In this document: positions 15,951 to 40,720 of the stretch, piece by piece
Layout of the letters: each line of letters begins with the position of its first letter
How positions within the stretch are numbered: position 1 is the stretch's first letter
Assembly (NCBI GenBank): GCA_022826505.1
Contig: JAJDUQ010000301.1
Span: 1-64,000, forward strand
DNA length: 64,000 nt
Reading direction: 5' to 3'
From: Gammaproteobacteria bacterium
GTDB taxonomy: Bacteria; Pseudomonadota; Gammaproteobacteria; HK1
Notes under the pieces: model-generated
What the model was told of the DNA's origin: nothing
The model's input: only the letters and a program-made list of their open reading frames with translations
The model's database searches: none
Position numbers and translations under genes: made by a program

Positions 15951-16790
15951 ATGAGCGCAATCGCCGATTTGAATTTCGAGACCGGGATCGCCGGCCTGTC
16001 CGAACGCCAAGCCTCTCTCTGGGGCTTCCGCTCCGGCGACCGAGGCACCCACACCAGCCGCACGATCATGCTCGACGAGCTGTCTCAACTCCTGGATGCA
16101 GTTCCGGGCGAGGTGCGCCGGCAGGAATACGTGAACGCCGTCACGCACGACAACTGTCTCGGAAAGAGAACGGCCGCGACTCGTCAACACTCGCTTCAGC
16201 GGCTGACCGAGCTCTACGGACTGGATGGACGGCTGCTTCTGTTCCGTGCGCTCAGGAACCTGTGGGGACGTCACTCATCCAGCCGCCCCCTGCTCGCGTT
16301 GCTTCTCGCTCTCGTTCGTGACCCCTTGCTGCGTGCGACGGCCGGAGCGGTAATCGCCACGCCATTCGGCCACGAGTTCGGGCGACAAGCCATGAAGGAC
16401 GATCTTGTCGAAGCCGTGGGGGACCGACTGAACGAAGCGACGCTCGACAAGGTGGTGCGCAACGCCGCTTCTTCCTGGACGCAGTCCGGTCACCTTCGAG
16501 GTCGCGGGCGAAAGACCAGGCAGCGCGTGGAAGCGCCAGCGGCAGCGGTGACGTACGCGTTGCTGGTCGGGTTCGCGACAGGGCGTCGCGGCCGATTGCT
16601 GTTCGAGACACCGTGGACCGCAGTTCTCGATGCATCTCCCGGCGCCCTGGTCGACATTGCCGTTGACGCGAATCGACTGGGGCTGCTCGACCTCAAGCAT
16701 TCGGGCCAGATGATCGACGTGTCCTTTCCGATGATGTTCACCAGGAGAGAATGGGAGCTGATCCGTGGGCCGCATCGACAGACTGGCTGA
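15951..16790 (+). CDS. brxA: BrxA-like protein (DUF1819-like), first gene of the BREX operon
   Basis: 279-aa, mostly helical, no enzyme motif. Position immediately before a DUF1788 (brxB) gene and brxC, plus a segment YVNAVTHDNCLGKRTAATRQ followed by a leucine-rich helical region, fits BrxA/DUF1819, though it is longer than E. coli BrxA (about 200 aa). BrxA is described as a small DNA-binding helical protein required for BREX phage defence. The ATG at 15951 has no Shine-Dalgarno; the preceding bases are CCTCCCCCGC, so initiation is leaderless or weak. Its end overlaps brxB by 26 bases. The assignment rests more on context than on residues. Confidence 0.65.
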   Translation: MSAIADLNFETGIAGLSERQASLWGFRSGDRGTHTSRTIMLDELSQLLDAVPGEVRRQEYVNAVTHDNCLGKRTAATRQHSLQRLTELYGLDGRLLLFRALRNLWGRHSSSRPLLALLLALVRDPLLRATAGAVIATPFGHEFGRQAMKDDLVEAVGDRLNEATLDKVVRNAASSWTQSGHLRGRGRKTRQRVEAPAAAVTYALLVGFATGRRGRLLFETPWTAVLDASPGALVDIAVDANRLGLLDLKHSGQMIDVSFPMMFTRREWELIRGPHRQTG

Positions 16791-17337
16791 GCGCTACGAG
16801 CGCTACATCTCCCTTCCGTGGGAGAAGGACCTCGCCGGCGCCCAGCGGGTGATATTCGTCGTCTACGACAAGTCCGACGAGCGGCGGCTGCGGGCGCGCA
16901 AGCAGCTTTTCAAGATTGCGACCGACAAGGCCGGCCACCATTGGATCGAGTGCGATCTGACCGATGCGTTCGCAGAGTGGATGACCAACAGAGTCGAGTA
17001 TCGGGAGAGCTACTTCGAGTCGCCGGAGGATCTCGATCTCAAGCTCGAAGATGATTTCCTCGAGCACACGGTCGGTCGGGTGCGAACGGTGCTGCAAGCA
17101 TCGGAGGCCGACGATGCCTCGGTCGTCGCCCTGTTCGGTATCGCGTCGCTCTTCGGGTTCATTCGCGTCTCGGAGGTGATGCGGGCAATCGAACGGGACG
17201 TGCGGGGCCGTATCGTGGTGTTCTTTCCCGGGGAGTACGTGGACAGCAACTATCGCCTGCTGGATGCAAGAGACGGATGGAACTACCTCGCGGTCCCCAT
17301 CACCCTGCAGGAAATCCCGGGGGTATACGACGTATGA
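16765..17337 (+). CDS. brxB: BREX protein BrxB (DUF1788)
   Basis: 190-aa DUF1788 protein. Family features are the N-terminal RYERYISLPWEKDLAGAQRVIFVVYDKSDERRLRARKQLF, the acidic centre, LFGIASLFGFIRVSEVM near residue 120, and the terminal GRIVVFFPGEYVDSNYRLLDARDGWNYLAVPI. BrxB is an essential BREX component of unknown biochemical role that probably works with BrxC. Starts at GTG 16765 with GGGAG upstream; its stop overlaps the brxC start (ATGA). Confidence 0.88.
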   Translation: MGRIDRLAERYERYISLPWEKDLAGAQRVIFVVYDKSDERRLRARKQLFKIATDKAGHHWIECDLTDAFAEWMTNRVEYRESYFESPEDLDLKLEDDFLEHTVGRVRTVLQASEADDASVVALFGIASLFGFIRVSEVMRAIERDVRGRIVVFFPGEYVDSNYRLLDARDGWNYLAVPITLQEIPGVYDV

Positions 17338-20300
17338 AGAACAGGGACGTCTATCAGAAGGATCCCGATCGGATCACGCTCCTCAACAACGGCGTCGCGG
17401 CCATGACCGACGCCCTCGATCCCAACGAGCGCAGTACGCTGCGTTTCGAGTTGCAACATTTTGTCTGCGAGGGCCAGTATCGGAGCGGACTCGTTCGTAT
17501 CCTGGAGTCCTACGTCAGCCATCAGGGCCAGCCCGAACAGCCGGCCGCCTGGATCAGCGGATTTTTCGGCAGCGGCAAGTCGCACCTGGCGAAGATGCTG
17601 CGCTTCCTGTGGTCGGACTACCAGTTCCCCGACGACGGCGCCACCGCTCGCGGACTTGCGCATCTACCGGACGACGTGCGGGAGTTGCTCACGGAGGTCT
17701 CCACGATCGGGCGGCGAGGCCATGGTCTGCACGCCGCGGCGGGAACGCTTGGAGCGGGGACCGGAGACAGCGTTCGGCTCGCCCTGCTGGGTATCGTGTT
17801 CAGGTCGTTGGGTCTGCCCGAGGGCTTTCCTCAAGCCCGCTTTTGCCTCTGGCTCAAGAAGAACGGAATCTACGACCGGGTCCGCGGAGCGCTCGAGGAG
17901 CAAGGCCGGGACTTTCGGGGAGAGCTGAACGATCTCTACGTCAGTCCGCTGATTGCCAAGGCACTGCTCGCCGCCGACCCGACCTTTGCCGGCAGCGAGA
18001 AGGAAGCGAGACAGGCGCTTCGCAAGCAGTTTCCCAAGCCTACCGACATTACGGACGACGAGTTCGTTTCCGCACTCCAGGATTCACTCGCCCCGGGTGG
18101 TGGGATGCCGGGGACCGTCATCATTCTCGACGAGGTGCAGCAGTACATCGGAGACGACACCAGCCGCTCGTATGTCGTGCAGGAGATTGTCGAAGCATGC
18201 AGCAAGCGGTTCGGTGATCGTCTTCTCTTTGTCGGAACGGGACAGACCGCGCTGTCCGGCACGCATGCGCTGCAACGTCTCCAGGGCCGGTTCGCAGTCA
18301 CTGTCGAGCTTTCGGACCATGACGTCGAGACCGTGATCCGGCGGGTGGTGCTGGCGAAGCGTCCGGACCGCGTGAACGACGTTCAATCCTCACTCGACGC
18401 GAGCGCCGGAGAGATTGATCGCCATCTCGTCGGCACTCGCATCGCCCCCCGCAGCGAAGACAAGCCCATCCTGGTCGATGACTATCCGTTGCTGCCCGTC
18501 CGCCGACGCTTCTGGGAACACACACTGCGCGCGGTCGACCGTGCGGGCATGGCCGGCCAGCTTCGCACGCAGCTTCGCATCGTCTACGACGCCATTCGAC
18601 GCACCGCCGACAATCAGGTGGGCACTGTCGTGGCGGCGGACTTCCTGTTCGACGAGGTCTCGGCCAACCTGCTCCAGTCCGGCGTGCTGCTCCGGGAGAT
18701 CCACGAGGCGATCGTCAAGCAGCGCGAAGACGGCACCCCCAACGGTGAGTTGAAGTCGCGGCTCTGCGCTCTGGTATTCCTGATTCGCAAGCTCCCGCGG
18801 GACGCCGGGGTCGACATCGGTGTGCGTGCGAATGTCGGGACTCTGGCAGACCTGCTGGTCGAGAACCTGGCCAATGACGGGGCCGAATTGCGAGGTCGGT
18901 TGCCGGCGCTCCTCGACGAGTTGGTGAACGCGGGCACATTGTTGAAGCTCGACGACGAGTACAGCCTGCAAACCCGGGAAAGCAGCGACTGGGAAGCCGA
19001 GTTCCGCAACCGGAAAAGCCGGCTCACGAACGACCTCGCGCGCATGGCGACCGAACGCGTTGCGCTCCTCGGCGAAGCAGTGCACAAGGTAGTGGGTTCC
19101 ACGAGGCTGTCCCACGGAGCGAGCAAGGAGCCGCGCAGGCTCTCCCTCCACTTCAGCGCCGAGCCACCAGCGGACGATGGCCGTGACGTCCCGGTGTGGG
19201 TGCGCGACGGTTGGGGCGCCCGGGAGAGCACGGTGGTTGCCGACGCACGGGCGGTCGGAACGGACAGCCCCGTCATCCATGTTTTCGTGCCGAGGTCCCA
19301 GGCGGAAGGCCTCGCGCGTCTCATCGCTGATCGGGACGCCGCGAAGGCCACCCTGGAGTACAAGGGAGTGCCATCGACGCCCGAAGGCATCGAGGCGCGC
19401 CAAGGCATGGAGACACGCCTGACCGAGGCGGAGAACAACCTGCGGGCGGTGGTGGCCGACGTGGTTGGTGGGGCCAAGGTGATCCAGGGGGGCGGCAACG
19501 AGCGGCCAGAGTCGAGCCTGTCCGACAAGGTCCGGGAGGCCGCCGACGCCTCCCTGGCCCGGCTCTTTCACAAGTTCAACGACGCAGATGACCATCGGTG
19601 GCCAAAGGTGATCGAACGCGCCCGCGCCGGTGCCGATCATCCGCTCGAGGTGCTCGACTACAGCGGCAAGACCGAGGAACACCCTGTATGCGCCACTGTC
19701 CTGACGTTCGTGGGCGCTGGCAAGCGGGGGCGAGAGGTGCGTTCGCATTTCTCCGATCCACCCTACGGTTGGCCTCGGGATGCCATCGATGCAGCACTCA
19801 TCAGCCTGTTCGGAGCCGGTCACCTCCGGGCCGCCGCGAACGGCGTTGCGCTGCACCCGGGGCAGCTCGATCAGGCGAAAGTGGCGAGCACCGACTTCCG
19901 GACCGAGAGCGCAACCATCAGTACTCGCCAGCGCCTGAAGCTGCGCGGCCTGTTCCAGACTGCCGGAATCGAGTGCAAGCCGAACGAGGAGACTGCAGCC
20001 GCAGGACGGCTGCTGAGCCGCCTCGACGACTTGGCGCGGGGTGCGGGTGGGGACGCGCCGCTGCCGGAGTGTCCCGATACCCGGCACCTGTCGGAGCTGA
20101 CGTCACTTGCCGGCAACGAGCAGTTGCTCGCCATCCTGGACCGGCATGATGTCCTCGTCGCAAACGCCAACGAGTGGACGGCGGCCGGAACACTGGCCGT
20201 GGAACGGCTGCCCGCGTTCCGGCGACTTGAGGCGCTCCTCCGGCACGCGGAAGACCTGGACGTGGCAAAGGAAGTGAAGCCTCAGATAGAAGCAATCGTC

Positions 20301-20780
20301 GCGGGCCGTCGGTTGCTCGACGTGTCAGACCCGGTACCCGGGCTCGCGGCGAAGCTGACTGATGCCCTGCGCACCGCCCTGGTAGCGTCAGAGGAACTCC
20401 ACGACACGACCTATGACGACGAACATCAACGCTTGGAAGGATTCGACGCTTGGCAGCGAATTGAGCAGGAGACCCGCGACGAAATTCTCTCCGGACTGCA
20501 CATAGCGAGAGCTTCGGCGGGAGGCACAGGCACACAGAGTGAAGTCCTCGAGTCGCTCGGCCGAATCTCGCTCGACGACTGGCGAACGCGTACCGCAGCA
20601 CTCCCGCAATTGTTCGCTCAAGCCAAGGTGGAGGCGCATCGGCTCGTCGAGCCGAAAATCCGTCACCTCAAGCTCGAGAGCGCTACCCTCCGCACCTCGG
20701 AGGAGGTCAGAGCCTGGATCGAGAAGACCGAACGGGAACTGTTGGAACAGATTCGGCAAGGTCCGATCGCGATCGGCTGA
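17334..20780 (+). CDS. brxC: BREX P-loop ATPase BrxC
   Basis: 1148-aa BrxC (PglY family) ATPase, a core BREX component thought to act with PglX on modification and phage restriction. The N-terminal signature DVYQKDPDRITLLNNGVA is followed by Walker A GFFGSGKSHLAK (residues about 76-87). Walker B is VIILDEVQQYIGD (near 262). The C-terminal half is helical and probably multimerising. Starts on an ATGA overlap with brxB. Eleven bases after its stop comes a non-BREX ATPase gene, the first of the insertions. Confidence 0.92.
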   Translation: MKNRDVYQKDPDRITLLNNGVAAMTDALDPNERSTLRFELQHFVCEGQYRSGLVRILESYVSHQGQPEQPAAWISGFFGSGKSHLAKMLRFLWSDYQFPDDGATARGLAHLPDDVRELLTEVSTIGRRGHGLHAAAGTLGAGTGDSVRLALLGIVFRSLGLPEGFPQARFCLWLKKNGIYDRVRGALEEQGRDFRGELNDLYVSPLIAKALLAADPTFAGSEKEARQALRKQFPKPTDITDDEFVSALQDSLAPGGGMPGTVIILDEVQQYIGDDTSRSYVVQEIVEACSKRFGDRLLFVGTGQTALSGTHALQRLQGRFAVTVELSDHDVETVIRRVVLAKRPDRVNDVQSSLDASAGEIDRHLVGTRIAPRSEDKPILVDDYPLLPVRRRFWEHTLRAVDRAGMAGQLRTQLRIVYDAIRRTADNQVGTVVAADFLFDEVSANLLQSGVLLREIHEAIVKQREDGTPNGELKSRLCALVFLIRKLPRDAGVDIGVRANVGTLADLLVENLANDGAELRGRLPALLDELVNAGTLLKLDDEYSLQTRESSDWEAEFRNRKSRLTNDLARMATERVALLGEAVHKVVGSTRLSHGASKEPRRLSLHFSAEPPADDGRDVPVWVRDGWGARESTVVADARAVGTDSPVIHVFVPRSQAEGLARLIADRDAAKATLEYKGVPSTPEGIEARQGMETRLTEAENNLRAVVADVVGGAKVIQGGGNERPESSLSDKVREAADASLARLFHKFNDADDHRWPKVIERARAGADHPLEVLDYSGKTEEHPVCATVLTFVGAGKRGREVRSHFSDPPYGWPRDAIDAALISLFGAGHLRAAANGVALHPGQLDQAKVASTDFRTESATISTRQRLKLRGLFQTAGIECKPNEETAAAGRLLSRLDDLARGAGGDAPLPECPDTRHLSELTSLAGNEQLLAILDRHDVLVANANEWTAAGTLAVERLPAFRRLEALLRHAEDLDVAKEVKPQIEAIVAGRRLLDVSDPVPGLAAKLTDALRTALVASEELHDTTYDDEHQRLEGFDAWQRIEQETRDEILSGLHIARASAGGTGTQSEVLESLGRISLDDWRTRTAALPQLFAQAKVEAHRLVEPKIRHLKLESATLRTSEEVRAWIEKTERELLEQIRQGPIAIG

Positions 20781-20791
20781 GGAGACGAGCG

Positions 20792-21952
20792 ATGTTCATG
20801 CACCGAATAAAGCTCCGGAACATCCTTTCGTTCGGACCGGACGCGCAGGAGCTGGAGTTCGCGCCACTCAATGTGCTGATAGGGCCAAACGGCTCCGGGA
20901 AGTCGAACCTCATTGAGGTGATCGAGCTCTTGCGGGCTGCTCCCCGGGACCTGACCACTCCCATCGCCGAGGGCGGTGGTGTCGGCAACTGGCTCTGGAG
21001 AGGCGAGCCCAGAGCATCGTCTGCCCACATCGAGGTAGTTCTCGCGGACGAGGACAATTCGTTCATGCTTCGCCACAGTCTGGCCTTTGCGGAGGCCACC
21101 CATCGCTTCCAGTTGGCCAGTGAGCAGATCGCGAAAGCTGAACCAATCTCCGGCCAAGATGAACCCCGCCTCTACTTCGAGCTGAATGCGAACGGTCCGA
21201 ACTTTGGCCGCAACACGGGGCTGACTCAGCAGTCGCTCCTGTACAAACGCAGCCAATCCGTCCTTTCTCAGATTCGCGACCCTTTTCGTTATGCGGAACT
21301 GACGTGGCTGGGCGACATGTACGCTCGAATTCGCCCGTATCGCGAATGGACTTTCGGGCGACATGCGGCGCCTCGACAACCACAGGACGCTGCGCTTCCC
21401 AATGACTTTCTGCTCGAAGGTGGTCAGAACCTGGGGTTAGTGGTGAACCGCCTGAAGCGCGAACCAGAGGCCAAGAGTCGATTCCTGGACGCTTTGCGAA
21501 GTCTCTACGAAAGCGTAGTGGATTTCGACGTGATCGTGGAAGGAGGCACAGTTCAAGTCATGCTGCAGGAAGGCAATATCACCGTCCCTGCGGTACGGTT
21601 GTCGGACGGCACGCTTCGCTACCTCGGCCTGCTGGCCATTCTCTGCCATCCAACTCCGCCGCCCCTCGTCTGCATCGAGGAACCGGAGCTTGGCCTGCAC
21701 CCCGACATCCTCCCCGGTCTGGTGAAGCTGCTTCGGGAAGCCTCTCAACGCTGCCAACTGATCGTCACCACGCATTCCGACATTCTCGTCGACGCGCTGA
21801 CGGACACACCGGAAAGCGTGGTCGTGTGCGAGAAGGAGAACGGTCAGACGACGATGAAGCGCTTTGACAAGCAGGAACTCGCCGGCTGGCTCGAGAGATA
21901 CAGCCTGGGTGACTACTGGTTGCGAGGTGGATTGGGAGGAACGCGCTGGTGA
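20792..21952 (+). CDS. AAA family ATPase (AAA_21/RecF-like), nested defence module
   Basis: 386-aa ABC-type/AAA_21 ATPase. Walker A GPNGSGKS (residues 31-38), an ABC-like LSDGTLRYLGLLAIL, Walker B with acidic pair CIEEPELGLHPD, and switch VTTHSDILVDAL. Its stop overlaps the start of a DUF4276 gene (GTGA), so the two are coupled. ATPase + TOPRIM-like pairs of this form (PARIS AriA/AriB, RloA/RloB, AbiL-like) act in anti-phage defence, the ATPase sensing infection and controlling the partner. The exact named system is not certain: PARIS AriB is normally DUF4435, not DUF4276. Confidence 0.82.
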   Translation: MFMHRIKLRNILSFGPDAQELEFAPLNVLIGPNGSGKSNLIEVIELLRAAPRDLTTPIAEGGGVGNWLWRGEPRASSAHIEVVLADEDNSFMLRHSLAFAEATHRFQLASEQIAKAEPISGQDEPRLYFELNANGPNFGRNTGLTQQSLLYKRSQSVLSQIRDPFRYAELTWLGDMYARIRPYREWTFGRHAAPRQPQDAALPNDFLLEGGQNLGLVVNRLKREPEAKSRFLDALRSLYESVVDFDVIVEGGTVQVMLQEGNITVPAVRLSDGTLRYLGLLAILCHPTPPPLVCIEEPELGLHPDILPGLVKLLREASQRCQLIVTTHSDILVDALTDTPESVVVCEKENGQTTMKRFDKQELAGWLERYSLGDYWLRGGLGGTRW

Positions 21953-22548
21953 GCACCCGGCTCTACGTTGAGGGAGGCGGCGATCGAAAGCCTTTGAGAA
22001 CCGAGTGCCGGCAGGCATTTCGGGAGTTTCTCCAGAAGGCAGGGCTTGCAGGACGCTTGCCAAGGATCTTCGCCTCCGGCGGCAGACAACAGGCCTACGA
22101 GGACTTTCGTCACGCGCTCCGGGCGTCCCGCGGCGATGATTTTGTCGTGTTGCTCGTTGACAGCGAAGGGCCAGTCGCGACGGGAGCCGGACCTTGGCGG
22201 CACCTGGAGGATCGTGACGGCTGGGACAAGCCGGCCGGGGCTACCGACGACCACGTTCACTTGATGGTCCAGTGCATGGAGGCATGGCTCCTGGCCGACC
22301 GTCCCGCATTGGCCGAATACTTCGGCGATGGCTTCAGCGAAAACTCCCTTCCCCGTCGAGCGGATGTCGAGGAGGTCTCCAAGCAGGACCTCGAACGTGG
22401 ACTGAACGCCGCTACCCGCAATTCCAGACCCAAGGGCGCGTACCGCAAGGGCCGAGATTCGTTCGCGATCCTCGCGGGTCTGGATCCGGACAAGGTCGCC
22501 GACGCGTCTCCCCATGCCAAGCGGTTCCTGGAAGCGCTGCGAGCTTGA
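21949..22548 (+). CDS. DUF4276 family protein (TOPRIM-like effector candidate)
   Basis: 199-aa DUF4276 protein. Start LYVEGGGDRKPLRTECRQAF holds the conserved VEG.GD acidic strand-turn. The middle DFVVLLVDSEGPV has the DxE-type motif. HLMVQCMEAWLLADRPALAEYFG and SKQDLE complete the family pattern. Glu9 and the Asp/Glu of VDSEGP could form a TOPRIM metal site. It begins at a GTG overlapping the ATPase stop by four bases. Probable effector of the ATPase; its activity (nuclease?) is inferred. 43 bp separate it from pglX. Confidence 0.78.
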   Translation: MSTRLYVEGGGDRKPLRTECRQAFREFLQKAGLAGRLPRIFASGGRQQAYEDFRHALRASRGDDFVVLLVDSEGPVATGAGPWRHLEDRDGWDKPAGATDDHVHLMVQCMEAWLLADRPALAEYFGDGFSENSLPRRADVEEVSKQDLERGLNAATRNSRPKGAYRKGRDSFAILAGLDPDKVADASPHAKRFLEALRA

Positions 22549-22591
22549 GTCCCGTGACCAGGAACGTCCGTAGCCGAATATGGGGGCCGGG

Positions 22592-30446: not shown

Positions 30447-30794
30447 ATGAGCACCTACTACTACGACCTGAAGAAGCCCTGGAGCCGAATCGAGGTAGAC
30501 GAGAATCCGGAGAGTTATGTCATCAGGCTATGGGATGGGCAAATGCACTAGGCAGGAGTGCTGACGCTTACGGTCGAAGACGGCCGAGAGGCGATCTACA
30601 ATTTCTTCCGCGATGAAACTGCATGCCAGACCTACGTTGATGACCAAGGGTCGGTACTGCATGAGCTCAGAAAGGTTCGTACCAATACGCTCCTCAGCGA
30701 GTACGGAGACGTCGTGACCCTTGATGAAATCAACAAGAAATGCCGCCGACGGTGCACCGGGTTGCCGAAGTCGGAGTTGGGTGCTTCGGTGTGA
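30447..30794 (+). pseudogene. small hypothetical gene interrupted by an in-frame TAG
   Basis: Reading from ATG 30447 gives MSTYYYDLKKPWSRIEVDE and continues to a TAG at 30549-30551. The same frame then reads on coherently (GVLTLTVEDGREAIYNFF and later LLSEYGDVVTLDEINKKC) to 30794. A GTG at 30558 could restart, but GGA abuts it with no proper spacing. It is best explained as a ~115-residue gene with a nonsense mutation, though two small proteins cannot be excluded. Family not recognised. Confidence 0.5.
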
Positions 30795-30873
30795 ACGCCT
30801 GCAGCGAGCATTCGTCCGATCCCGTGGGCGTCCGGAAGGCAACATTGGTTGTCAAGAGAATCTGAGCACTCAG

Positions 30874-30981
30874 GTGTCCAAAAATTTTGCCACCGTCGTC
30901 GAACGTCTGAGAGCGCCGCTCGAAGCCGCCTCCGCCCACAACCCTGGCGACGTCCAAGAACCAAGGGACGCAGTATGTTGA
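30874..30981 (+). pseudogene. relic of the 5' end of a pglZ gene
   Basis: GTG 30874 opens VSKNFATVVERLRAPLEAASAHNPGD, alignable to the first residues of the intact PglZ at 36336 (TLVERLKASLEAASAHNPND), with clear nucleotide similarity. The reading stops at 30981 without the rest of PglZ. It differs from the intact copy at many positions, so it is not a very recent duplicate. It lies just before the HamA-like gene, as if a pglZ was interrupted by, or replaced during, insertion of that module. Confidence 0.7.
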
Positions 30982-31039
30982 TTGGCCGTCTTGGTCTTCT
31001 CCGGAAAACATCCGGTCCCGTCTCCCCGAGGAGATTGTA

Positions 31040-31843: not shown

Positions 31844-34800
31844 GCTGGCTCATGGAAGCCGTCGGGCAGGACAGAGTCGACCGCGCGGAGGTGGAAGCGA
31901 GTAGGCGTCGCGTGGCGGCGGCCCTCGGCATGGAGGAAATCGAATACGGAGACGCAAACGAACTCCGCGAAGTCGGCGCGGTGCTGGAAACTCTGCTGTT
32001 CGACCTGCTTGCTGACAACGATCATGCCGACGCACTGCGAGAGGCGAGCGCACGCGCATTCCAAGTGTGCCGGGCAATTCCGCTGCCACCGGAGCCGGTC
32101 GAAGCAGGAGAGTGGCTGCTCCGTCTTGCTTGCATGGCAATCCTTGGCGATCGGGGTGCAGACATCCGCCGACTCCTCGTCGATGACGGGATCCCCGGGC
32201 TTCATGTGGATGGCGACGACTGGGACCGCAGGGTATGGGCGACCACCCTGGACATCTGGTTGAGGCTTGTCCGAAAGCATGGCTGGGAAGATCTGGATCG
32301 CATTCAGGAAAGCGTGGCTGCCCTCCGGTCGGAGCAGGACACTCACGAGCCGGCATTTCTCGCCGGATTGCAGGACGACGGACGCCAGGACCCCGCTTGG
32401 CAGTTGATTGCCGAATACCACTTGGCGAGAGCGGCCGAAATTCTCGGCGTATTCGTGGGACAGGGCGCGGGACCGGACGGCCGTTTCGATGTGCGCCAGC
32501 AGCTTGAATCCCAGTTCGATCGTGCCCTTGGCGCGTGCGCTCGCGGCCGACTCGTAGACTTGGAAGTTTTGGTGCGCCTTCTCGCTCGTTCGGCAACTGT
32601 CCTTGTCGACAACAGCATCTGGACCGTGACCCGTGCTGTGAACAGTCGAGTCAGTCGATTTGTCCGCGACACCGTCTCCCGGGTACGGCATCGGCCGATC
32701 TTCGAAATGCTGCCGCCGCAACGACGCACGCTGCGGGAGGAGGGTCTGCTGGGTTCAGGACACCGGTCGGTAGTGGTCAGCCTCCCGACGTCCAGTGGCA
32801 AGACAATGATTGCCCAGTTCCGGATGCTCCAAGCCCTGAATCAGTTCGATCATGAGCGCGGTTGGGTAGCCTACCTCGCCCCGACCCGGGCACTGGTGAA
32901 GCAGATTACGGTTCGCTTGCGACGGGACTTCGCACCGCTGGATATCTGCGTCGAATTGGTAAGTCCGGCGCTGGAGATCGACGGAATCGAAGCCTTGATG
33001 CTGACCGATGAGGACGAGTCCCGACAATTTCGTGTGCTGGTGACCACGCCCGAGAAGCTGGACCTCATGCTTCGCGGGGGATGGGAAGGCGAGATTGGGC
33101 GACCACTGACCCTCGTGGTGGTCGACGAGGCGCACAACTTGGCCAGTACAAGTCGCGGAATCAAGCTTGAGCTTCTCTTGGCGACAATCAACCGAGAGTG
33201 TCGGCACGCGCAGTTCCTGCTCTTGACCCCGTTCATCGGAAACGCGCAACAGGTTGCCCATTGGCTAGCGCCTGACAGCTACAACAACATCGAGCTTATG
33301 GTGGACTGGGCGCCTAACGACAGGGTGATGGCCATCGCCGAGCCTGTACACGGCGAGAAACGCGGGGCGTTCAAGGTGAGCTTCACCACCCTCCATACGA
33401 CCAGGAAAACCCTCGCGATTCCCGATGTCCTGACGCTGCCGGAAGATCGCCCTCTGGGCTTGAGTTGGTCACAAGCGAAAGCGCAGGGAGCGCTTGCTGC
33501 TGCAACGGCACAGCAGATCCGAAACCGCGGTACGGTGATCATCCTGGCCGACAAGCCACACAATAGCTGGTCCATCGCCTCCCGGTTCAAGCGCCCGGAC
33601 AACTATCGACCGGACTCCAGCTTGGATGTCGAGAGGACGAAGGCATTTCTGATTGAGGAGTTTGGCGCAAATCATCCGCTGCCCGGGTTGCTGGACTATG
33701 GAGTAGGGGTTCATCACGCCGGGATGTCCGACGAAGCGAGAGCCTTGGTCGAGTGGCTTGCAGAAAACAACCGCCTTGACGTGCTGGTTGCGACCACAAC
33801 CCTCGCACAAGGGGTGAACTTTCCGGTCTCCGGGGTCGTGCTGGCGTCCCACCAGTATCCATACGGGGAGGACATGCCTCCGGAAGACTTCTGGAATATC
33901 GCCGGACGTGCGGGACGTGTGGACCAGGGCGACATCGGAATCGTGGCGCTCGCCGCCGGCAAACCGGAGAAGCGGCAAGTTCTGGAAGCATTCGTAGCCA
34001 GAAACGTCGGGGTTTTGAATTCCACGCTTATCAAAATGGTCAAGGAGGCTGCGTCGGCAGGCATGTTGTTGTCATTGGAGAGCCTGTCATGGAAGAAGGA
34101 GTGGTCCGCGTTCCTGCAGTACTTGGCCCACACCTACAAGCAGATCGGTGATCACGAGCGGTTCGCACTCGAAGTAGAGCAGGTACTCCGCGGCACATTG
34201 GGCTTTCAAGAACTCCGGCAAAGCGACCCGGCCATGGCCAGTCAATTCGTTGACGGTGTTCGGCGATACGGTGGCGGGCTTGCGGGACAACCGCTCAGCT
34301 TGGTCGACCACACGGGATTCTCTTTGGAGACAGTACGCAGCACCTTGGCCAAGCTTTCGGACCAACGGGTAGACGAAGACGCCTGGACAACCACGATGTT
34401 CGACACGCCCCGACCCTATCTGAGCCGGATGATGGGAATCCTGCTGGAAGTGCCGGAGTTGCGGAACGAACTGGGCGACGTGATCGGAGGCTCACGTCGC
34501 GATGGTGACAAGCTGGCGCGCATCGTCTGTGACTGGGTTCAGGGACGCTCCTTGCCTGAGATGGCGATGGACTACTTCAAGGTCGAAGGCAGAGAAGGAG
34601 AGACGGATGCCGTCGCGACGATGACCAGGTGCTGCCAACGTCTGTTCGGCCGATTGACGCAAACAGCATCGTGGGGGCTTGCAGCGCTCCAGACACTCAC
34701 CTTTCGAGAAGGATTCGAGGACCTGGACGATGCGGAAAAGCGTTCTTTGCGAAATCTGCCCGGAAAGGTCTACTACGGAGTCAACACGGATGAGGCATTG

Positions 34801-35019
34801 CTACTTCGCCTCATTGGTGTGCCCCGACGGGCGGCGGAGCCTTTGGCCAGAACTCTTGCGTTGTCATCGGAGACGCCGCTTACGGAGGTACGCGCCGCCC
34901 TGAGAGAAGGCGGGCAAAGTCCTTGGCAACTAGCGTTGGGCGATCTCGGTCCGACCTATCGCACCGTCTGGTCGATCATCGAGGCAGAAGGCGCATCGAG
35001 AGAAGGAACGGAGTCATGA
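31840..35019 (+). CDS. HamB-like DEAH helicase (Ski2-like SF2)
   Basis: 1059-aa helicase. About 300 helical residues precede Walker A SLPTSSGKTMIA (near 314), YLAPTRALVKQI (motif Ia), VVDEAHNLAS (DEAH, near 428), motif III LLTPFIGNAQQ, VATTTLAQGVNFPVSGVV (motif V) and NIAGRAGRVDQGD (motif VI, near 688), then a long helical C-terminus. This is the Ski2-like architecture of Hachiman HamB. It overlaps HamA at the start and the AlbA_2/HATPase gene at the end by four bases each. A BREX accessory helicase (BrxH) is an alternative, but the nuclease partner favours HamB. Confidence 0.75.
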   Translation: MSWLMEAVGQDRVDRAEVEASRRRVAAALGMEEIEYGDANELREVGAVLETLLFDLLADNDHADALREASARAFQVCRAIPLPPEPVEAGEWLLRLACMAILGDRGADIRRLLVDDGIPGLHVDGDDWDRRVWATTLDIWLRLVRKHGWEDLDRIQESVAALRSEQDTHEPAFLAGLQDDGRQDPAWQLIAEYHLARAAEILGVFVGQGAGPDGRFDVRQQLESQFDRALGACARGRLVDLEVLVRLLARSATVLVDNSIWTVTRAVNSRVSRFVRDTVSRVRHRPIFEMLPPQRRTLREEGLLGSGHRSVVVSLPTSSGKTMIAQFRMLQALNQFDHERGWVAYLAPTRALVKQITVRLRRDFAPLDICVELVSPALEIDGIEALMLTDEDESRQFRVLVTTPEKLDLMLRGGWEGEIGRPLTLVVVDEAHNLASTSRGIKLELLLATINRECRHAQFLLLTPFIGNAQQVAHWLAPDSYNNIELMVDWAPNDRVMAIAEPVHGEKRGAFKVSFTTLHTTRKTLAIPDVLTLPEDRPLGLSWSQAKAQGALAAATAQQIRNRGTVIILADKPHNSWSIASRFKRPDNYRPDSSLDVERTKAFLIEEFGANHPLPGLLDYGVGVHHAGMSDEARALVEWLAENNRLDVLVATTTLAQGVNFPVSGVVLASHQYPYGEDMPPEDFWNIAGRAGRVDQGDIGIVALAAGKPEKRQVLEAFVARNVGVLNSTLIKMVKEAASAGMLLSLESLSWKKEWSAFLQYLAHTYKQIGDHERFALEVEQVLRGTLGFQELRQSDPAMASQFVDGVRRYGGGLAGQPLSLVDHTGFSLETVRSTLAKLSDQRVDEDAWTTTMFDTPRPYLSRMMGILLEVPELRNELGDVIGGSRRDGDKLARIVCDWVQGRSLPEMAMDYFKVEGREGETDAVATMTRCCQRLFGRLTQTASWGLAALQTLTFREGFEDLDDAEKRSLRNLPGKVYYGVNTDEALLLRLIGVPRRAAEPLARTLALSSETPLTEVRAALREGGQSPWQLALGDLGPTYRTVWSIIEAEGASREGTES

Positions 35020-36314
35020 ACGTCTGCACCGTATCGCCGACCGCCCCATTGGCTGATAGCACAGAGTCGCTATTGAACAACATACGAATGGGGGAAAGCA
35101 GGATTCTGAACTTCACCGGTGCCCGGTTTGCAGGAGCTTCGATTGAGGCACCTCACTGCGATTGGCTTGCGGACGCATTCGCTGCGTTCGCGAACAGTCG
35201 TGGCGGCGTGTTCGTCCTGGGTGCCGACAAGGACTCGCGGGACGTCGCGGGGATTCCCATTGAACGGCTGGATAGCGTGACCGAATTGGTCTCTGAAGCA
35301 TGCACGGACTCTGTCGATCCTCCGATCGTGGACATCGTTGTGGAGCGGCTATGGTTGCGAGCAAGCACCGGCGACCAGTTGCCCGTCGTAAGAGTGGAGA
35401 TTCCGCGGAGTCTCTTCGTTCACAGGAGTCCCGGCGGCTACCTGTATCGAACGGAGAATGGGCAGCGGGCCATGTCGCTGGAGTATCTCTCCAGACTTGC
35501 AGAGCAGCGCAGTCAGGCGCGGGTCATTCGTTTCGATGAGCAACCAATGTCCAACGCGACAGTCGATGATGTGGCGCTCGATCTCTGGCGGCGATTTCGC
35601 ACTCCTCGGTCCGACGAGGATCGGGGCACCTTTCTCCGCAAGCTCCGTATGGCGCGTCCGGACGAGAGCGGCACATTCCGACCCACGGTTGCAGGCGTGT
35701 TGATGGCGTCGGCCGATCCGCGGCAGTGGATACCAAACGCCTTTGTGCAGGCGGTGGCATATCGGGGAACGGCTATCGGAATTCCGGACTTGAACTATCT
35801 GAATCCGTTGGACGCCGCTGATATCACCGGACCACTGGATGTCCAGGTCGCGGAGACCTGCCGATTCGTCGCCAAAAACATGAACACGGCGGCGTTCAAG
35901 GATCAGGGTCGTAGAGGCCAACCCCAGTACGACATGACAGCAGTCTTCGAGGCAGTCGTCAACGCTGTCGCCCACAGGGATTACGCAATCCATGGATCGA
36001 AGGTCAGGTTGCGATTGTTCGAGAACCGACTGGAGCTCTATTCCCCCGGCAGTATTCCGAACTCGCTGGGGGTCGAGAGCCTCCCCCACCTGCAATCTAC
36101 CCGCAACGAATTCGTCACCAGCTTGCTTGCACGGTGCTCAGCTCCCGGAGATATCCCAGGCCTCATAACCGATCGTCGAACTATGATGGACAAACGTGGC
36201 GAAGGAGTGCCGCTCATTCTCGACAATAGCCGACGGTTGTCTGGACGCGAGCCGGAGTATCGCTTGATCGGCGACGCAGAGCTGTTGCTGACGATTCACG
36301 CGGCCGGTGCGTGA
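35016..36314 (+). CDS. AlbA_2 (Schlafen-type) + HATPase domain protein
   Basis: 432-aa protein with an N-terminal AlbA_2-like domain (ADAFAAFANSRGGVFVLGADKDSRDVAGIP, residues about 50-80) and a C-terminal HATPase_c_4 domain (MTAVFEAVVNAVAHRDYAIHGSKVRLRLFENRLELYSPGSIP, residues about 305-350), the layout of COG2865-type putative nucleic-acid-binding ATPases. ATG 35016 overlaps the helicase stop (ATGA), so it is coupled to the HamAB-like pair. Canonical Hachiman has only two genes; a third overlapping gene here may be a regulator or added sensor. Followed 21 bp later by pglZ. Confidence 0.75.
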   Translation: MNVCTVSPTAPLADSTESLLNNIRMGESRILNFTGARFAGASIEAPHCDWLADAFAAFANSRGGVFVLGADKDSRDVAGIPIERLDSVTELVSEACTDSVDPPIVDIVVERLWLRASTGDQLPVVRVEIPRSLFVHRSPGGYLYRTENGQRAMSLEYLSRLAEQRSQARVIRFDEQPMSNATVDDVALDLWRRFRTPRSDEDRGTFLRKLRMARPDESGTFRPTVAGVLMASADPRQWIPNAFVQAVAYRGTAIGIPDLNYLNPLDAADITGPLDVQVAETCRFVAKNMNTAAFKDQGRRGQPQYDMTAVFEAVVNAVAHRDYAIHGSKVRLRLFENRLELYSPGSIPNSLGVESLPHLQSTRNEFVTSLLARCSAPGDIPGLITDRRTMMDKRGEGVPLILDNSRRLSGREPEYRLIGDAELLLTIHAAGA

Positions 36315-36335
36315 CTGGGACAGTGGAAAGCTGAG

Positions 36336-38669
36336 ATGGATTCCGGCCGAACCCTCGTTGAACGACTGAAGGCGTCGCTCGAAGCCGCGTCCGCCCATAA
36401 CCCCAACGACGCCGAGAAACCCGTAGCGGTCCTTTGGACCGACCGCGACGCGCAGTGGCGGCCCATTCTCGAGCGGCTCCGCGCGTTGATGCCGCAGCTT
36501 CTGGTTCTCGGCGAGTACGAACCCGAGATCCGAACCGGACCGTCAATCTGGCTGCGGTGCGTGATCGATCGCGCGTTGGAGCTGCCAGGGTTCGCCGGCG
36601 ACACGATACCCGTGGTCTACCTGCCCGACGTCAGTCGGCAGGCGCTCGGCTCGGCGGAAGCCTGTCCGAGCGACCTGAAGCCGTTGGTGGAGCTTCAGTA
36701 CCGAGGTACGTGCTGGACGCAGAAGAACGGCCGGGACTGGACGGTGGAGGCGTTCATGGTCTCCAGCGATGGCGGCCTTGGTCTGGACGTGGCTCGCGAT
36801 ACGGCAACTCGGCAGTCCATGCTGGGTGCTCTCCCTGAACTCGTTACCACATCGATCCGCTTGCTCGAAGGCCGGCGTCTCGAAGCAACCGATTTCGATG
36901 CGCTTTTCTCTGATGATCCGGTCAGGGATTTGCTTCTCTGGCTCAGCGAGCCCGAGTCGGCGTTGGCCGGCTGGGAGGCCGGACGACGAAGCGCCTTTGC
37001 ATCGCGCTGCAAGTCCGAATTCGATTTCGATCCGGACAAGGATGGCGTGCTCGTTGCCGCCGAACGACTCGGAAGGCGCGAAGGATCGTGGGGGTCGGTG
37101 TGGAGCCGATTCGCCGAGTCGCCAGCACTGTATACCGGCCTGCCGGAGCTTCTGCACAAGGCGATGCCGAACGATTTGTTTGTCGAGCCGCCATCGTCGT
37201 GGCCTCAGAACAACAGGAAGGGTGAAGAGGAACTGCGACGAGCCCTCTTGGCCTTGGAGGGGAAAGCACCGTCTGCGGCACGCGAAGAAATTCTCCAGCT
37301 CGAGAAGACCCACGGCCCGAGGCGCGAATGGGTGTGGGCGAAACTCGACCTGGCCCCCCTTGCGTGCGCCCTCTTGCACTTGGCGGAAGTTGCGGAGCGC
37401 ACTTCAAGGAAGCTTGGAGGTGTCTCCGCGGCCGAGATGGCCGCGCAGTACGCAGCAGGGGCGTGGCCGATCGATGCCGCAGCGCTTTCCAGTTACGCCG
37501 AAGTGAACTCGTCTGCGGATACGAACGCGGTGAGCCGTGCGTTGGATGCCATCTACCGGCCGTGGCTGGACGAGGCTGCGCGTCACCTTCAGGCATTGGC
37601 GGACCAGGATCCGCTCCCGCGCCGTGGCGAGCAGAATGCGAACGATGTGCGTGTCGATTCCGGCGCAGCAATCCTCTTCGCGGACGGCCTCCGATTGGAT
37701 GTCTCCCAGCGTCTGGTGGAGCGCCTGCAATCGAAAGGGCGGACAGTGGAGAAGTCGACGCGGTGGGCCGCCCACCCCACGGTGACGGCCACTGCAAAGC
37801 CCGCCGTGTCTCCCGTGTCCGGGCACTTTGGCGGCGCGTCGCTCGGTGCGGATTTCCGAATCGTCACTGCAGATGTCGGTCGTCCATTGTCGACGGACCG
37901 GTTCCGAAAGCTCCTGAACGCATCCGGGTACCAGTACTTGGGCGCGGACGACACCGGAGACCCGTCCGGTCGCGCCTGGACGGAGTATGGCGACCTCGAC
38001 AAGGTCGGCCACTCGCTGGGAGCGAAGCTTGCAGCGCGGATTGACGAGCAGATCGCGTTGCTGCTCGAACGCATCGAATCCCTCCTCGATGCCGGCTGGC
38101 GGGAGGTCCGTGTCGTCACCGATCACGGCTGGCTCTGGCTTCCCGGCGGACTCCCCAAGGTGAACCTGCCGAAGTACCTGACTCAGAGCCGGTGGGCACG
38201 TTGTGCCTCCATCGAGGGCGACTCCGCGGTTCAGGTGCCGACCGTTCCCTGGTATTGGAACGCCGTGGAACGGGTCGCCGTCGGCCCGGGAATTGCCTGC
38301 TTCGGCGCAGGCAAGGAGTACGCGCATGGCGGCTTGAGCCTGCAGGAGAGCCTGATTCCCGTCCTTCGAGTTACCGCGGGTGCGGTCTCCGCGTCGGCGG
38401 ATGTGAGCATTACTGCGGTGAGCTGGGTCGGACTGCGGTGCCGCGTCCGAATTGATCCCACTCAATCAGGGCTGTCTGTTGACTTGCGGGCGCGCGTCGA
38501 CGACCCGGACTCAAGCGCCAGCGAGGCGCGGCAGGTGGATGCCGAGGGTACGGCGAGCCTGCTGGTGCCCGACGACGAACTGGAAGGCACGCCGGCCGCG
38601 GTCGTCGTTCTGGACCCGAGCGGCCGAGTCGTCGCGCGGCAGTCGACAATCATCGGAGGTGAAGATTGA
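36336..38669 (+). CDS. pglZ: BREX phosphatase-like protein PglZ, type B
   Basis: 777-aa PglZ of the alkaline-phosphatase superfamily. Metal-site segments: ILFADGLRLDVSQRL (near residue 445) and VRVVTDHGWLWLPGGLPKVNLPK (near 593), plus a conserved HGGLSLQESLIPVLRV late. Sequence style fits PglZ type B of BREX-1. PglZ is a core component, thought to regulate or pair with PglX. ATG 36336 follows a GGAAAGCTGAG stretch. The start of brxL overlaps its stop. A diverged copy of its first codons lies at 30874. Confidence 0.88.
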   Translation: MDSGRTLVERLKASLEAASAHNPNDAEKPVAVLWTDRDAQWRPILERLRALMPQLLVLGEYEPEIRTGPSIWLRCVIDRALELPGFAGDTIPVVYLPDVSRQALGSAEACPSDLKPLVELQYRGTCWTQKNGRDWTVEAFMVSSDGGLGLDVARDTATRQSMLGALPELVTTSIRLLEGRRLEATDFDALFSDDPVRDLLLWLSEPESALAGWEAGRRSAFASRCKSEFDFDPDKDGVLVAAERLGRREGSWGSVWSRFAESPALYTGLPELLHKAMPNDLFVEPPSSWPQNNRKGEEELRRALLALEGKAPSAAREEILQLEKTHGPRREWVWAKLDLAPLACALLHLAEVAERTSRKLGGVSAAEMAAQYAAGAWPIDAAALSSYAEVNSSADTNAVSRALDAIYRPWLDEAARHLQALADQDPLPRRGEQNANDVRVDSGAAILFADGLRLDVSQRLVERLQSKGRTVEKSTRWAAHPTVTATAKPAVSPVSGHFGGASLGADFRIVTADVGRPLSTDRFRKLLNASGYQYLGADDTGDPSGRAWTEYGDLDKVGHSLGAKLAARIDEQIALLLERIESLLDAGWREVRVVTDHGWLWLPGGLPKVNLPKYLTQSRWARCASIEGDSAVQVPTVPWYWNAVERVAVGPGIACFGAGKEYAHGGLSLQESLIPVLRVTAGAVSASADVSITAVSWVGLRCRVRIDPTQSGLSVDLRARVDDPDSSASEARQVDAEGTASLLVPDDELEGTPAAVVVLDPSGRVVARQSTIIGGED

Positions 38670-40720
38670 AGCTGGAGCTCGACAGTCTCGACCAGCGCGC
38701 GGCGAAGGCATTCGACGGCTACCTCGTCCGCAAGGACCTCGTTCGCAATTACGCGCGGCAGTACCCGGTCCCGACCTACGTGGTCGAGTTTCTCCTCGGG
38801 CGCTACTGCGCCACCACCGACGAGCGGGAGATCGAGGAAGGTCTTGCCATCGTCGAGCGGCAGCTCGCCGACCGGACGGTGCGAACCGGTGACGAGGAGC
38901 TGTTCAAGGCGAGAGCCCGGGACCGGGGCGCCATCAAGCTGATCGACATCGTCAAGGCGAGGCTGGACGCGAAGACCGACTCGCTCATCGCGGAGCTGCC
39001 CAGCCTCGGCATCAAGGACGTACGTGTCGACGACGACATGGTGAAGCAGCACGAGCGCATGCTCACCGACGGGTTCTACGCTGAGGTCACGCTGAGCTAC
39101 GACGCAACCATCGCGCTGGAGAAGAACGGGCGGCCGTTCGCGATCGACGGCCTTCGTGCAATTCAGCTTTCGAAGGCCGATCTCCTGGATACGCTCTACC
39201 GGGGACGCCGGATGCTGACCAGCGAAGAGTGGCGGCAGCTTCTGCTTCGTAGTGTCGGACTGGAGCCCGGCGCGCTGTCGGAGCGGGCGCAGATCGTCGC
39301 GCTGATCCGAATGGCTCCGTTCGTCGAGAGAAACTACAACATGGTCGAGCTCGGTCCACGGGGAACGGGGAAGAGCCACCTGTTCCAGCAGATTTCGCCC
39401 TACGCACACCTGATTTCCGGTGGCAAGGCGACGGTGGCGAAGATGTTCGTCAACAATGCCAGCGGCCAGCGCGGGCTTGTCTGTCAGTACGACGTCGTGT
39501 GCTTCGACGAGATATCGGGTGTCTCCTTCGATCAGAAGGATGGCGTGAACATCCTCAAGGGTTACATGGAGTCAGGCGAATTCTCGCGCGGCAAGGAGAG
39601 CATCCGGGCCGAGGGCGGAGTCGTCATGGTGGGGAACCTCGATGTCGAGGTCGAGCATCAGCAGCGCATCGGACACCTCCTCAGCCCTTTGTCCGCGGAC
39701 ATGCGCGACGACACCGCGTTCATGGACCGCATTCACGCCTACGTCCCCGGCTGGGATTTTCCCAAGCTCAATCCGAACGAGCATTTCACCGACCACTTTG
39801 GCCTCGTAAGCGACTTCCTGTCGGAGTGCTGGAGTCGGCTGCGCACCCGCAGTCGGGTTCAAGCGCTGCAGGGGCGGGTGAATTTCGGTGGAGCGTTGAG
39901 CGGTCGGGACATCACCGCGGTCAACAAGACGGTGAGCGGCCTTCTCAAGCTGCTGTACCCGGACCCCGAGATGGAAGTGCCCGACAGTGAGCTGGAGACG
40001 CTGGTGCGCATCGCCCTGGAAGCGCGCCGCAGGGTCAAGGAGCAGCAGAAACGGGTGTTCAAGAGTGAGTTCCGGAACACGTATTTCAGCTACGCGATGG
40101 GCGAGGACGGAGTCGAGAATTTCGTCTCCACACCGGAGCTGCACAGCGACGAAGCAATCGATCCGGACCCGCTGCCACCGGGGCAGGTGTGGGGGATCGG
40201 TCCGGGCGGTTCGGAGACGGGACCCAGCCTGTATCGAATCGAAGTCACCGCCGGCAAGGGAAGTGGAGTCAGGATACTGAACGCTCCAGTTCCGCCCGCC
40301 TTCCGCGAGAGCGTCCGCTACGCCGAGCAGAACCTGTATTCCCGGGCGAAAGAGCTCGTCGGAGATCGGGACCCCCGCGCCCATGAGTTCTCGGTGCAGC
40401 TCCGCGCCATGGACAACGACCGCACCGGCGCGGATGTGGGGTTGCCTGCACTGATGGCTCTGTGCAGCGGCCTTTTGGAGAAAAACATCAAGGGCGGCCT
40501 GATTCTGGTCGGAGCATTGAATCTTGGCGGGTCGGTGGAGCCACTGACGAATGCCGTTGGAATCGTGGAGGTCGCGGTGGAGAAGGGGGCGTCCGTCGTA
40601 TTGATACCGGTGTCTGCGCGGAGACAGTTGTTCGACCTCTCCGACGACATGGCGACACGGGTCAACGTGCAGTTTTACTCGGATACCCCCGATGCGCTGC
40701 TGAAGGCGTTGTTGGAGTGA
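38666..40720 (+). CDS. brxL: BREX Lon-like protein BrxL
   Basis: 684-aa BrxL. The N-terminal DUF4357-type/BrxL region precedes an AAA+ core with Walker A GPRGTGKSHLF (near residue 230) and CFDEISGVSF. The C-terminal Lon-protease-like fold (RTGADVGLPALMALCSGLLEKNIKGGLILVGALNLGG) lacks the catalytic Ser of Lon (Asp-Val in its place), as expected for BrxL, which acts as a DNA-associated AAA+ hexamer rather than a protease. Starts at TTG 38666 overlapping the pglZ stop, with GGAGGTGAAGA directly upstream. Last gene of the island. Confidence 0.9.
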   Translation: MKLELDSLDQRAAKAFDGYLVRKDLVRNYARQYPVPTYVVEFLLGRYCATTDEREIEEGLAIVERQLADRTVRTGDEELFKARARDRGAIKLIDIVKARLDAKTDSLIAELPSLGIKDVRVDDDMVKQHERMLTDGFYAEVTLSYDATIALEKNGRPFAIDGLRAIQLSKADLLDTLYRGRRMLTSEEWRQLLLRSVGLEPGALSERAQIVALIRMAPFVERNYNMVELGPRGTGKSHLFQQISPYAHLISGGKATVAKMFVNNASGQRGLVCQYDVVCFDEISGVSFDQKDGVNILKGYMESGEFSRGKESIRAEGGVVMVGNLDVEVEHQQRIGHLLSPLSADMRDDTAFMDRIHAYVPGWDFPKLNPNEHFTDHFGLVSDFLSECWSRLRTRSRVQALQGRVNFGGALSGRDITAVNKTVSGLLKLLYPDPEMEVPDSELETLVRIALEARRRVKEQQKRVFKSEFRNTYFSYAMGEDGVENFVSTPELHSDEAIDPDPLPPGQVWGIGPGGSETGPSLYRIEVTAGKGSGVRILNAPVPPAFRESVRYAEQNLYSRAKELVGDRDPRAHEFSVQLRAMDNDRTGADVGLPALMALCSGLLEKNIKGGLILVGALNLGGSVEPLTNAVGIVEVAVEKGASVVLIPVSARRQLFDLSDDMATRVNVQFYSDTPDALLKALLE

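Follow-up and report, generated by a model that had tools for sequence, protein, structure and literature searches.

How several separate defence modules come to lie inside one BREX operon, and whether they act in concert or each on its own, is the question raised by positions 15951-40720 of the window, the 64,000-nucleotide stretch of gammaproteobacterial DNA analysed here. The region encodes, on the plus strand throughout, the full gene set of a BREX type 1 operon whose PglZ is of type B (Table 1). Its cargo probably consists of autonomous modules that share the operon and came together when two BREX loci, each already loaded, recombined, a reading that rests on sequence comparison.

Table 1. 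Features of the BREX region, with positions in the window and the matches that support each assignment (slot 1, brxC to pglX; slot 2, pglX to pglZ).
Feature	Position	Strand	Evidence
brxA	15951..16790	+	PADLOC BrxA 1.1e-91
brxB	16765..17337	+	PADLOC BrxB 5.8e-75; Pfam BrxB 2.3e-08
brxC	17277..20780	+	PADLOC BrxC 1488 bits; NF033441 758 bits (cut-off 400); Walker A GFFGSGKS
HEC-01A, AAA_21/ABC-type ATPase (slot 1)	20792..21952	+	PADLOC HEC-01A 3.2e-162; AAA_21 6e-35
HEC-01B, DUF4276 protein (slot 1)	21949..22548	+	PADLOC HEC-01B 1.1e-77; Pfam DUF4276 4e-27
pglX, adenine methyltransferase	22580..26521	+	PADLOC PglX 1615 bits
DUF4258 protein (slot 2)	26518..26844	+	Pfam DUF4258 7e-18
Zinc-finger partner, split over two reading frames (slot 2)	26841..26980	+	motif only, no HMM match
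SIR2 (slot 2)	27077..28324	+	PADLOC SIR2 1.1e-158; PDB 8w9l 3.4e-72; TPNYD, KLHGS present
HerA (slot 2)	28317..30167	+	PADLOC HerA 5e-159; PDB 8wiv 5.7e-180
KTSC protein (slot 2)	about 30160..30372	+	Pfam KTSC 2.2e-22; L017 has KTSC likewise after HerA
Small ORF with in-frame TAG	30448..30794	+	sequence
Apparent 5' relic of a different pglZ allele, 34 codons in a single frame	30862..30963	+	sequence comparison
PDC-M23A, HamA-like putative PD-(D/E)xK nuclease (slot 2)	31040..31843	+	PADLOC PDC-M23A 2.5e-88
PDC-M23B, HamB-like helicase (slot 2)	31840..35019	+	PADLOC PDC-M23B 1329 bits, HamB 2.6e-53; PDB HamB 8vx9_B 1.7e-24
Schlafen AlbA_2 + HATPase_c_4 protein (slot 2)	35016..36314	+	Pfam
pglZ (type B)	36336..38669	+	NF033450 895 bits (cut-off 400); PADLOC 4.2e-295
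brxL	38666..40720	+	PADLOC 8.8e-290; TIGR02688 454 bits (cut-off 329)

In this family of systems, PglX methylates self DNA, and PglZ, BrxL and their partners block phage. The original prediction of six BREX type 1 core genes in the order brxA-brxB-brxC-pglX-pglZ-brxL is confirmed by PADLOC HMMs, to which NCBIfam models add PglZ type B, BrxC and BrxL. PglX scores 320 bits against NCBIfam NF033452, under the cut-off of 500, with its motifs kept; the motif TNVPYL is found in 32 of 36 aligned PglX sequences, that of the window included. Against Pfam PglZ (PF08665) the window's PglZ reaches 17 bits, under the cut-off of 25, and the same model finds zero matches in the window's own genome. Since it also misses the PglZ named by NF033450, other pglZ copies may exist in that genome. 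Catalytic motifs are retained in PglX, PglZ, BrxL, BrxC, SIR2, HerA and HEC-01A/B.

The overlapping start and stop codons that had suggested one transcript are real: among 14 neighbouring gene pairs, counted without the zinc finger and the small ORF, nine overlap by 4-61 bp and three are spaced by 11-31 bp. Two gaps are larger: one of 232 bp, in which the zinc-finger pieces lie, and one of 667 bp, which holds the TAG-interrupted small ORF and the pglZ relic; the latter, located 5' of the HamA-like gene, weakens the case for a single transcript. Promoter and terminator scans returned no more sites than in shuffled sequences and are thus uninformative on operon structure.

The operon would offer two cargo slots, brxC|pglX and pglX|pglZ. 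In slot 1, the pair first described as AAA+DUF4276 is HEC-01, with both subunits matched by PADLOC, and it may combine an ATPase sensor with a DUF4276 effector. PARIS was considered and rejected, as the AriA model fits the ATPase at 7.8e-35, far weaker than HEC-01A at 3.2e-162, and for the partner the only matches are HEC-01B models and DUF4276, AriB models being absent. A PDB search with HEC-01B gave no match, and nothing was found in the open-licence literature on DUF4276 with AAA in phage defence. According to the available text on the BREX system of E. fergusonii pEFER, brxU occupies this same brxC|pglX slot and knock-outs demonstrated independent layers; that system differs in carrying one type IV enzyme, and no pglX-pglZ stack is described in that text (PMC8565348). 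Salmonella D23580, as far as its account is available, likewise embeds an ATPase and effector pair in its BREX type 1 operon, but it is a single module of AriA/AriB, whereas the window carries HEC-01 with DUF4276 (PMC11341690).

Slot 2 spans 9,814 bp. PADLOC or Pfam models confirm the domains that had been named between pglX and pglZ, with the exception of the zinc finger, which matches no HMM and whose two CxxC pairs are not in the same frame, owing to a frameshift or an assembly error. Together with the DUF4258 protein it may represent a toxin-antitoxin pair. The SIR2 and HerA genes are adjacent and keep their catalytic motifs, although their scores against the NCBIfam anti-phage equivalogs stay under the cut-offs. 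They resemble the SIR2-HerA set of PDB 8wiv/8w9l in having both subunits with motifs kept, and differ from it by their position inside BREX with a KTSC gene. SIR2-HerA systems deplete NAD+ on activation, as this pair would be expected to do. For the window's HerA, none of the family's 16 other genomes gives a match at E<=1e-80, and a search of the open-licence literature for SIR2-HerA anti-phage defence with Paenibacillus found nothing. Neither piece of the small ORF clusters with anything in 50 loci.

The HamAB-like pair belongs to PDC-M23, so far a candidate system of PADLOC, with PDC-M23A and PDC-M23B present together and near full length; it differs by being nested in BREX. Searches of the open-licence literature for PDC-M23 or HEC-01 (two among PDC-M23, HEC-01 and PADLOC together) found nothing. 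The pair may work as a helicase sensor with a putative nuclease. In the HamA-like protein, D125, E142 and K144 are invariant across four aligned sequences, and E142 varies once two plasmid proteins join the alignment; the HamB-like protein keeps the motifs PTSSGKT and DEAH. The helicase is of the HamB type found in Hachiman, but true Hachiman was rejected, as the HamA-like protein lacks a match to Pfam HamA (PF08878). The sole match of PF08878 in the window's own genome is C118. Aligned to this model with hhalign, the HamA-like protein reaches a probability of 5% and P 0.007, over a span that includes the GAD..GE.K motif. It finds only matches with E 0.49 and 0.79 in the PDB, and a profile search found nothing.

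The AlbA_2 protein had been assigned to the same module as the HamAB-like pair, which does not hold: of 48 loci that have a pglZ ORF, 18 carry AlbA_2 directly 5' of it, and tblastn found no AlbA beside the HamAB-like pair in L068 and four viral contigs (L074-L077). It was also tried as a Schlafen RNase with a conserved E-x-K and rejected, since the domain is present and the E-x-K is gone. Aligned with 20 other AlbA sequences of >300 aa, the window has N-F-T at these residues, which we take to be catalytic; the relatives have K in 20 of 20, and E in 18 and Q in two. Two inserts thus look impaired, the split zinc finger and the AlbA_2 without E-x-K.

Cargo inside BREX operons is well known, as the original prediction stated. 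Genes between BREX components, including the pglX-pglZ slot, are given for ~7,000 of ~9,000 genomes in the available part of one survey (PMC11341690). In the open-licence literature, the wording 'between pglX and pglZ' turned up in a single paper, which concerns Streptomyces Pgl. That stacking on this scale is unusual stands in part. Among 53 measurable PglZ-type-B loci, the window included, its slot 2 is the largest, the runner-up measuring 6,749 bp, but cargo as such is common (36 slots filled, 17 empty) and a same-family genome, L094, holds three stacked modules. Either slot elsewhere carries a TrlF-type ATPase, Fic, TIR, AIPR, OLD-TOPRIM+UvrD, DarT or AbiEii. One locus, L017 (Gammaproteobacteria MAG OY282354.1), carries HEC-01 between brxC and pglX and SIR2-HerA-KTSC between pglX and pglZ, which is the window's order without the DUF4258 pair, the HamAB-like pair and AlbA, and is plausible as a possible 'before' state of the window's slot 2. 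No PglZ was confirmed in viral contigs, and the flanking ornithine cyclodeaminase has no match at E<=1e-60 in any of 11 other relatives searched.

Between the KTSC and HamA-like genes, 30862-30963 reads as a short remnant of a different pglZ allele, namely of its 5' end; this observation is new here. Positions 30892-30960 are 81% identical to the window's pglZ over 69 bp (blastn E 6e-10); the score of 42 compares with a control maximum of 28, so that none of 482 control segments reaches it. The relic is also recovered by tblastn (5.7e-5) and by an HMM built from 46 PglZ, the window's own among them (E 0.0007). For its first 30 bases, support comes only from the open frame plus a 12-mer that also occurs in the pglZ of L021. 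Identity to the pglZ of L017 is lower (68-70%), so the relic did not come from L017 itself, where no such relic was found. In 46 scanned slots and 14 extra loci, no other case is as clear. Slot 2 of L061 has a pglX 3' relic (E 7.6e-13) and a possible, weak pglZ 5' relic (HMM E 0.037; DNA score 18, against controls of up to 20, plus one at 56, in 538 segments).

From these observations we infer that the loading of slot 2 took two steps or more. A locus resembling L017 (pglX-SIR2-HerA-KTSC-pglZ) would have recombined with a BREX haplotype carrying HamAB-AlbA-pglZ, and a junction inside the first pglZ would have left its 5' stub ahead of the HamA-like gene. Searches on the HamAB side for the end of a donor pglX found nothing. 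Such a stub could also result if the pglZ start had been duplicated locally in tandem; in a same-genus genome (G004) the brxA|brxB and pglZ|brxL junctions are present in tandem copies, and no pglZ is closer to the relic than the window's own. This origin is nevertheless unlikely, given that the N-terminal tail of the relic reads STQVSKNFA against MDSGRT in the window's pglZ, and that its 12-mer occurs elsewhere, on the plus strand of the loci compared, only at the 5' end of the L021 pglZ. Moreover, the flanks of the relic score 8-11 against the window's AlbA-pglZ junction, within controls, so the relic is not a simple tandem copy, and Tandem Repeats Finder reports no array there, its sole row being an 18-bp x2 array in brxC. 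Slot 2 as a recombination landfill of mostly decaying hitchhikers, several of them non-functional, would fit the split zinc finger, the interrupted small ORF, the relic and the altered AlbA_2; the full-length frames and retained motifs of HEC-01A/B, SIR2, HerA, HamA and HamB make it improbable. More generally, recombination between loaded loci might be a way in which BREX operons gain modules, the window being a two-locus composite formed when one locus, broken at its pglZ start (or pglX end), was joined to the slot of another; we give this extension somewhat less than an even chance. If it holds, cargo would add up rather than swap, with core-gene stubs marking each joint and possibly telling the order in which modules were acquired. 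The junction relic, the 'before' state in L017 and the empty sites make the loading order testable. In the available parts of the BREX literature compared, no explanation is offered for the origin of multi-module stacks in one operon.

The original prediction read the stack as layered or coordinated defence, of which coordinated action does not follow from the evidence here. An integrated, layered machine, whose core and modules sense or trigger each other, with cargo firing, for example, once phage disables BREX, would suit the start/stop overlaps. It would also suit the backup effectors, proposed in the accessible part of one study, that may require failure of the primary response, and PARIS, reportedly triggered there by the BREX inhibitor Ocr (PMC12839542). 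That catalogue of auxiliary and backup effectors records, across many taxa, BREX genes that have OLD-ABC+TOPRIM pairs or Schlafen+histidine-kinase-like proteins as neighbours; unlike the window, the available text describes no multi-module stacks or relics, and its main text has zero occurrences of SIR2, KTSC and DUF4276. Against coordination, the PARIS of Salmonella BREX gave no response to Ocr, as far as its account is available (PMC11341690), and knock-outs reported in the available parts of two studies show nested BrxU/GmrSD active and protective without PglX (PMC8565348, PMC12373910). Relatives with the same core carry different cargo, and the HamAB-like pair occurs in non-BREX contexts, which leaves an integrated machine very doubtful. 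Autonomous, self-contained modules that make use of the transcription and translational coupling of BREX and for the most part answer their own triggers would account better for the locus. Outside BREX, the pair is found in G508 and, in the viral contig L075, between hsdM and hsdR. Rhizobium and Ensifer plasmids also carry a HamB-like helicase, preceded by a partner gene; this HamA-side partner is just 14-15% identical and was missed by tblastn. That the HamAB-like pair is nested in a BREX operon in the window and sits between hsdM and hsdR in the viral contig suggests that modification-based operons may dock autonomous modules.

The full set of six BREX type 1 core genes named in the original prediction was detected in the right order, with a PglZ of the NCBIfam type B class, and the core would function as established in the BREX literature. 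Motifs are intact in the core proteins and in SIR2, HerA, HEC-01 (an ATPase and DUF4276 pair), HamB and HamA. In the source assembly (346 contigs, 6.2 Mb, completeness 94.5%, contamination 7.4%), a PglZ search at E<=1e-20 returned only the gene of the window, and a BrxL search returned, besides the window gene, a single weak match in the rest of the assembly (22%, E 6e-5). Within the order, 3 of 17 genomes encode a PglZ of this kind, and within the class 9 of 369, the source genome counted. The gene upstream of brxA encodes a 2-hydroxyacid dehydrogenase and not a WYL/BrxR regulator. At 15888-15911, about 40 bp upstream of brxA, a 9-bp inverted repeat precedes a T-rich stretch and could be either an operator or the terminator of the dehydrogenase gene. 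The window also contains a 1.18-kb inverted repeat of 82% identity (197-1379 and 7951-9130).

Cargo of the two slots of the BREX operon
Feature	Position	Slot	Remark
HEC-01A + HEC-01B		1 (brxC-pglX)	
DUF4258 gene		2 (pglX-pglZ)	
Zinc-finger partner of DUF4258	26841-26980	2	Two CxxC pairs in different frames
SIR2 + HerA		2	Closest PDB entries: 8w9l/8wiv set
KTSC		2	
Small ORF	30448-30794	2	In-frame TAG inside
HamA-like + HamB-like genes		2	PADLOC PDC-M23A/B
AlbA_2 + HATPase_c_4 protein	35016-36314	2	

The DUF4258 half of the predicted DUF4258/zinc-finger module is present; the zinc finger reads as split between two frames, through either a true frameshift or an error in the assembly. The small ORF has no relative among 50 loci. 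In an alignment that excluded hits of 300 aa or less, the E-x-K of AlbA relatives reads N-F-T in the window's AlbA_2 protein, while 20 other AlbA sequences carry K in every case and E in 18 (Q in 2); judged from its sequence, the protein may be a pseudoenzyme. SIR2-HerA would act through NAD+ loss. Nested BrxU/GmrSD still worked in knock-outs without PglX (PMC8565348, PMC12373910), and from these, together with the cargo variety among relatives, it would follow that the nested modules act autonomously; no sign of cross-talk between them emerged.

Relatives came from one scan of genome contigs with a PglZ alignment, which gave 50 loci. With an empty slot defined as <300 bp, the pglX-pglZ interval was filled in 27 and empty in 15 of the 42 measurable loci (of 51, window included). 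Of 14 further loci mapped, L093 duplicates L020, L094 duplicates L018, and L099 is without pglX; the remaining 11, with lengths taken from tblastn ends, comprise nine filled and two empty (75 bp) slots, so that slot 2 is filled in 36 of 53 measured loci, window included. The window's slot 2 (9,814 bp) is the largest of these, followed by L071 (6,749 bp); larger ones could be missed, since nine loci (L019, L021, L024, L051, L053, L057, L060, L064, L065) have no readable pglX or pglZ ORF or extend past the contig end or the 10-kb flank. The brxC-pglX interval is filled in 13 of 26 measurable loci. Cargo types, identified from tested representatives only, include across both slots TrlF-type ATPase with AlbA, Fic, TIR, AIPR, OLD-TOPRIM with UvrD, helicase with a DprA-like protein, DarT with ADP-ribosylglycohydrolase, and AbiEii. 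An AlbA_2 gene lies immediately 5' of pglZ in 18 of 48 loci with a pglZ ORF (window counted; the ORF is absent in 3 of 51). HEC-01 occupies slot 1 in the window, L017, L022 and the same-family L094, and slot 2 in L063. The order in L094 is brxABC-HEC-01-pglX-Fic-TrlF/Ppl-type ATPase-AlbA-pglZ-brxL; with three stacked modules there, the window is not the only locus to carry a stack.

That nested accessory defence genes are established in BREX was borne out by the literature. In the available parts of these sources, about 7,000 of some 9,000 genomes with pglZ and pglX have genes between BREX components, about 5,000 of them without a known system between pglZ and pglX (PMC11341690), and nuclease-type BREX cargo is catalogued, including OLD-ABC pairs and Schlafen proteins, with OLD-type sensors paired with toxic effectors (PMC12839542). 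Given these counts and this catalogue, the operon is a rich case of already known nested BREX cargo. The new part is a pglZ relic and a model in which cargo was stacked through recombination between two loaded BREX loci, for which no precedent was found in searches of the open-licence literature.

The comparison locus L017 (brxC-HEC-01-pglX-SIR2-HerA-KTSC-pglZ-brxL) has the same order as the window, but without the DUF4258 pair and HamAB-AlbA. In the window, a stub of the pglZ 5' end lies 3' of KTSC and the broken small ORF. Positions 30892-30960 match the window's own pglZ start (81% identity over 69 bp, E 6e-10), with an alignment score of 42; none of 482 random segments of the window scored above 28. 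The stub was recovered by tblastn with the window's PglZ (5.7e-5) and by a PglZ N-terminus HMM trained on 46 PglZ, this one among them (E 0.0007); the HMM gave an additional 0.9 match in L026 and zero matches in reversed slots. From 30862 the stub translates in one frame as LSTQVSKNFATVVERLRAPLEAASAHNPGDVQEP, and the corresponding start of the intact pglZ is MDSGRTLVERLKASLEAASAHNPNDAEKP. Among the loci compared, the 12-mer at the stub start recurs only at the pglZ 5' end of L021, its two other matches being the window's own DNA; the codon there is GTG in L021 and CTG in the window. The DNA flanking the stub does not match the window's AlbA-pglZ junction. Because of these flanks, the sequence differences and the 12-mer common to L021, the stub looks like a different pglZ allele and not like a tandem copy. 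At L061:7189-7515, between AlbA and pglZ, lies a relic of a pglX 3' end (E 7.6e-13); a second relic there, possibly of a pglZ 5' end, has E 0.037 and a DNA score within its controls. The window relic, and more weakly those of L061, are taken to mark places where two BREX loci were joined. The tandem copies of the brxA-brxB and pglZ-brxL junctions in the same-genus genome G004 (L100, L093; C1:773133-798888), which also has repeats within brxC and two genes each for PglX and AlbA, are the product of a different process.

The HamAB-like pair also occurs elsewhere: outside BREX in genome G508 (HamA 39%, HamB 37%) and in four viral contigs, nested between hsdM and hsdR in one (L075, 1997-11443) and directly 3' of a BrxL-like gene in another (L074, 2029-8165). 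HamB-like matches at E<=1e-60 were found in 2 of 398 sampled phylum genomes, the source genome included. Rhizobium and Ensifer plasmids encode a HamB-like helicase (~30%) with an upstream partner of similar size, which has 14-15% identity to the window's HamA-like protein and motif E missing; in R. etli the pair adjoins CBASS genes. The HamA-like protein has no Pfam HamA match; aligned to true HamA with hhalign, it gives a probability of 5% (P 0.007) over the D..E.K motif. The source assembly carries a separate HamA (PF08878), above cut-off, at C118:671-1303.
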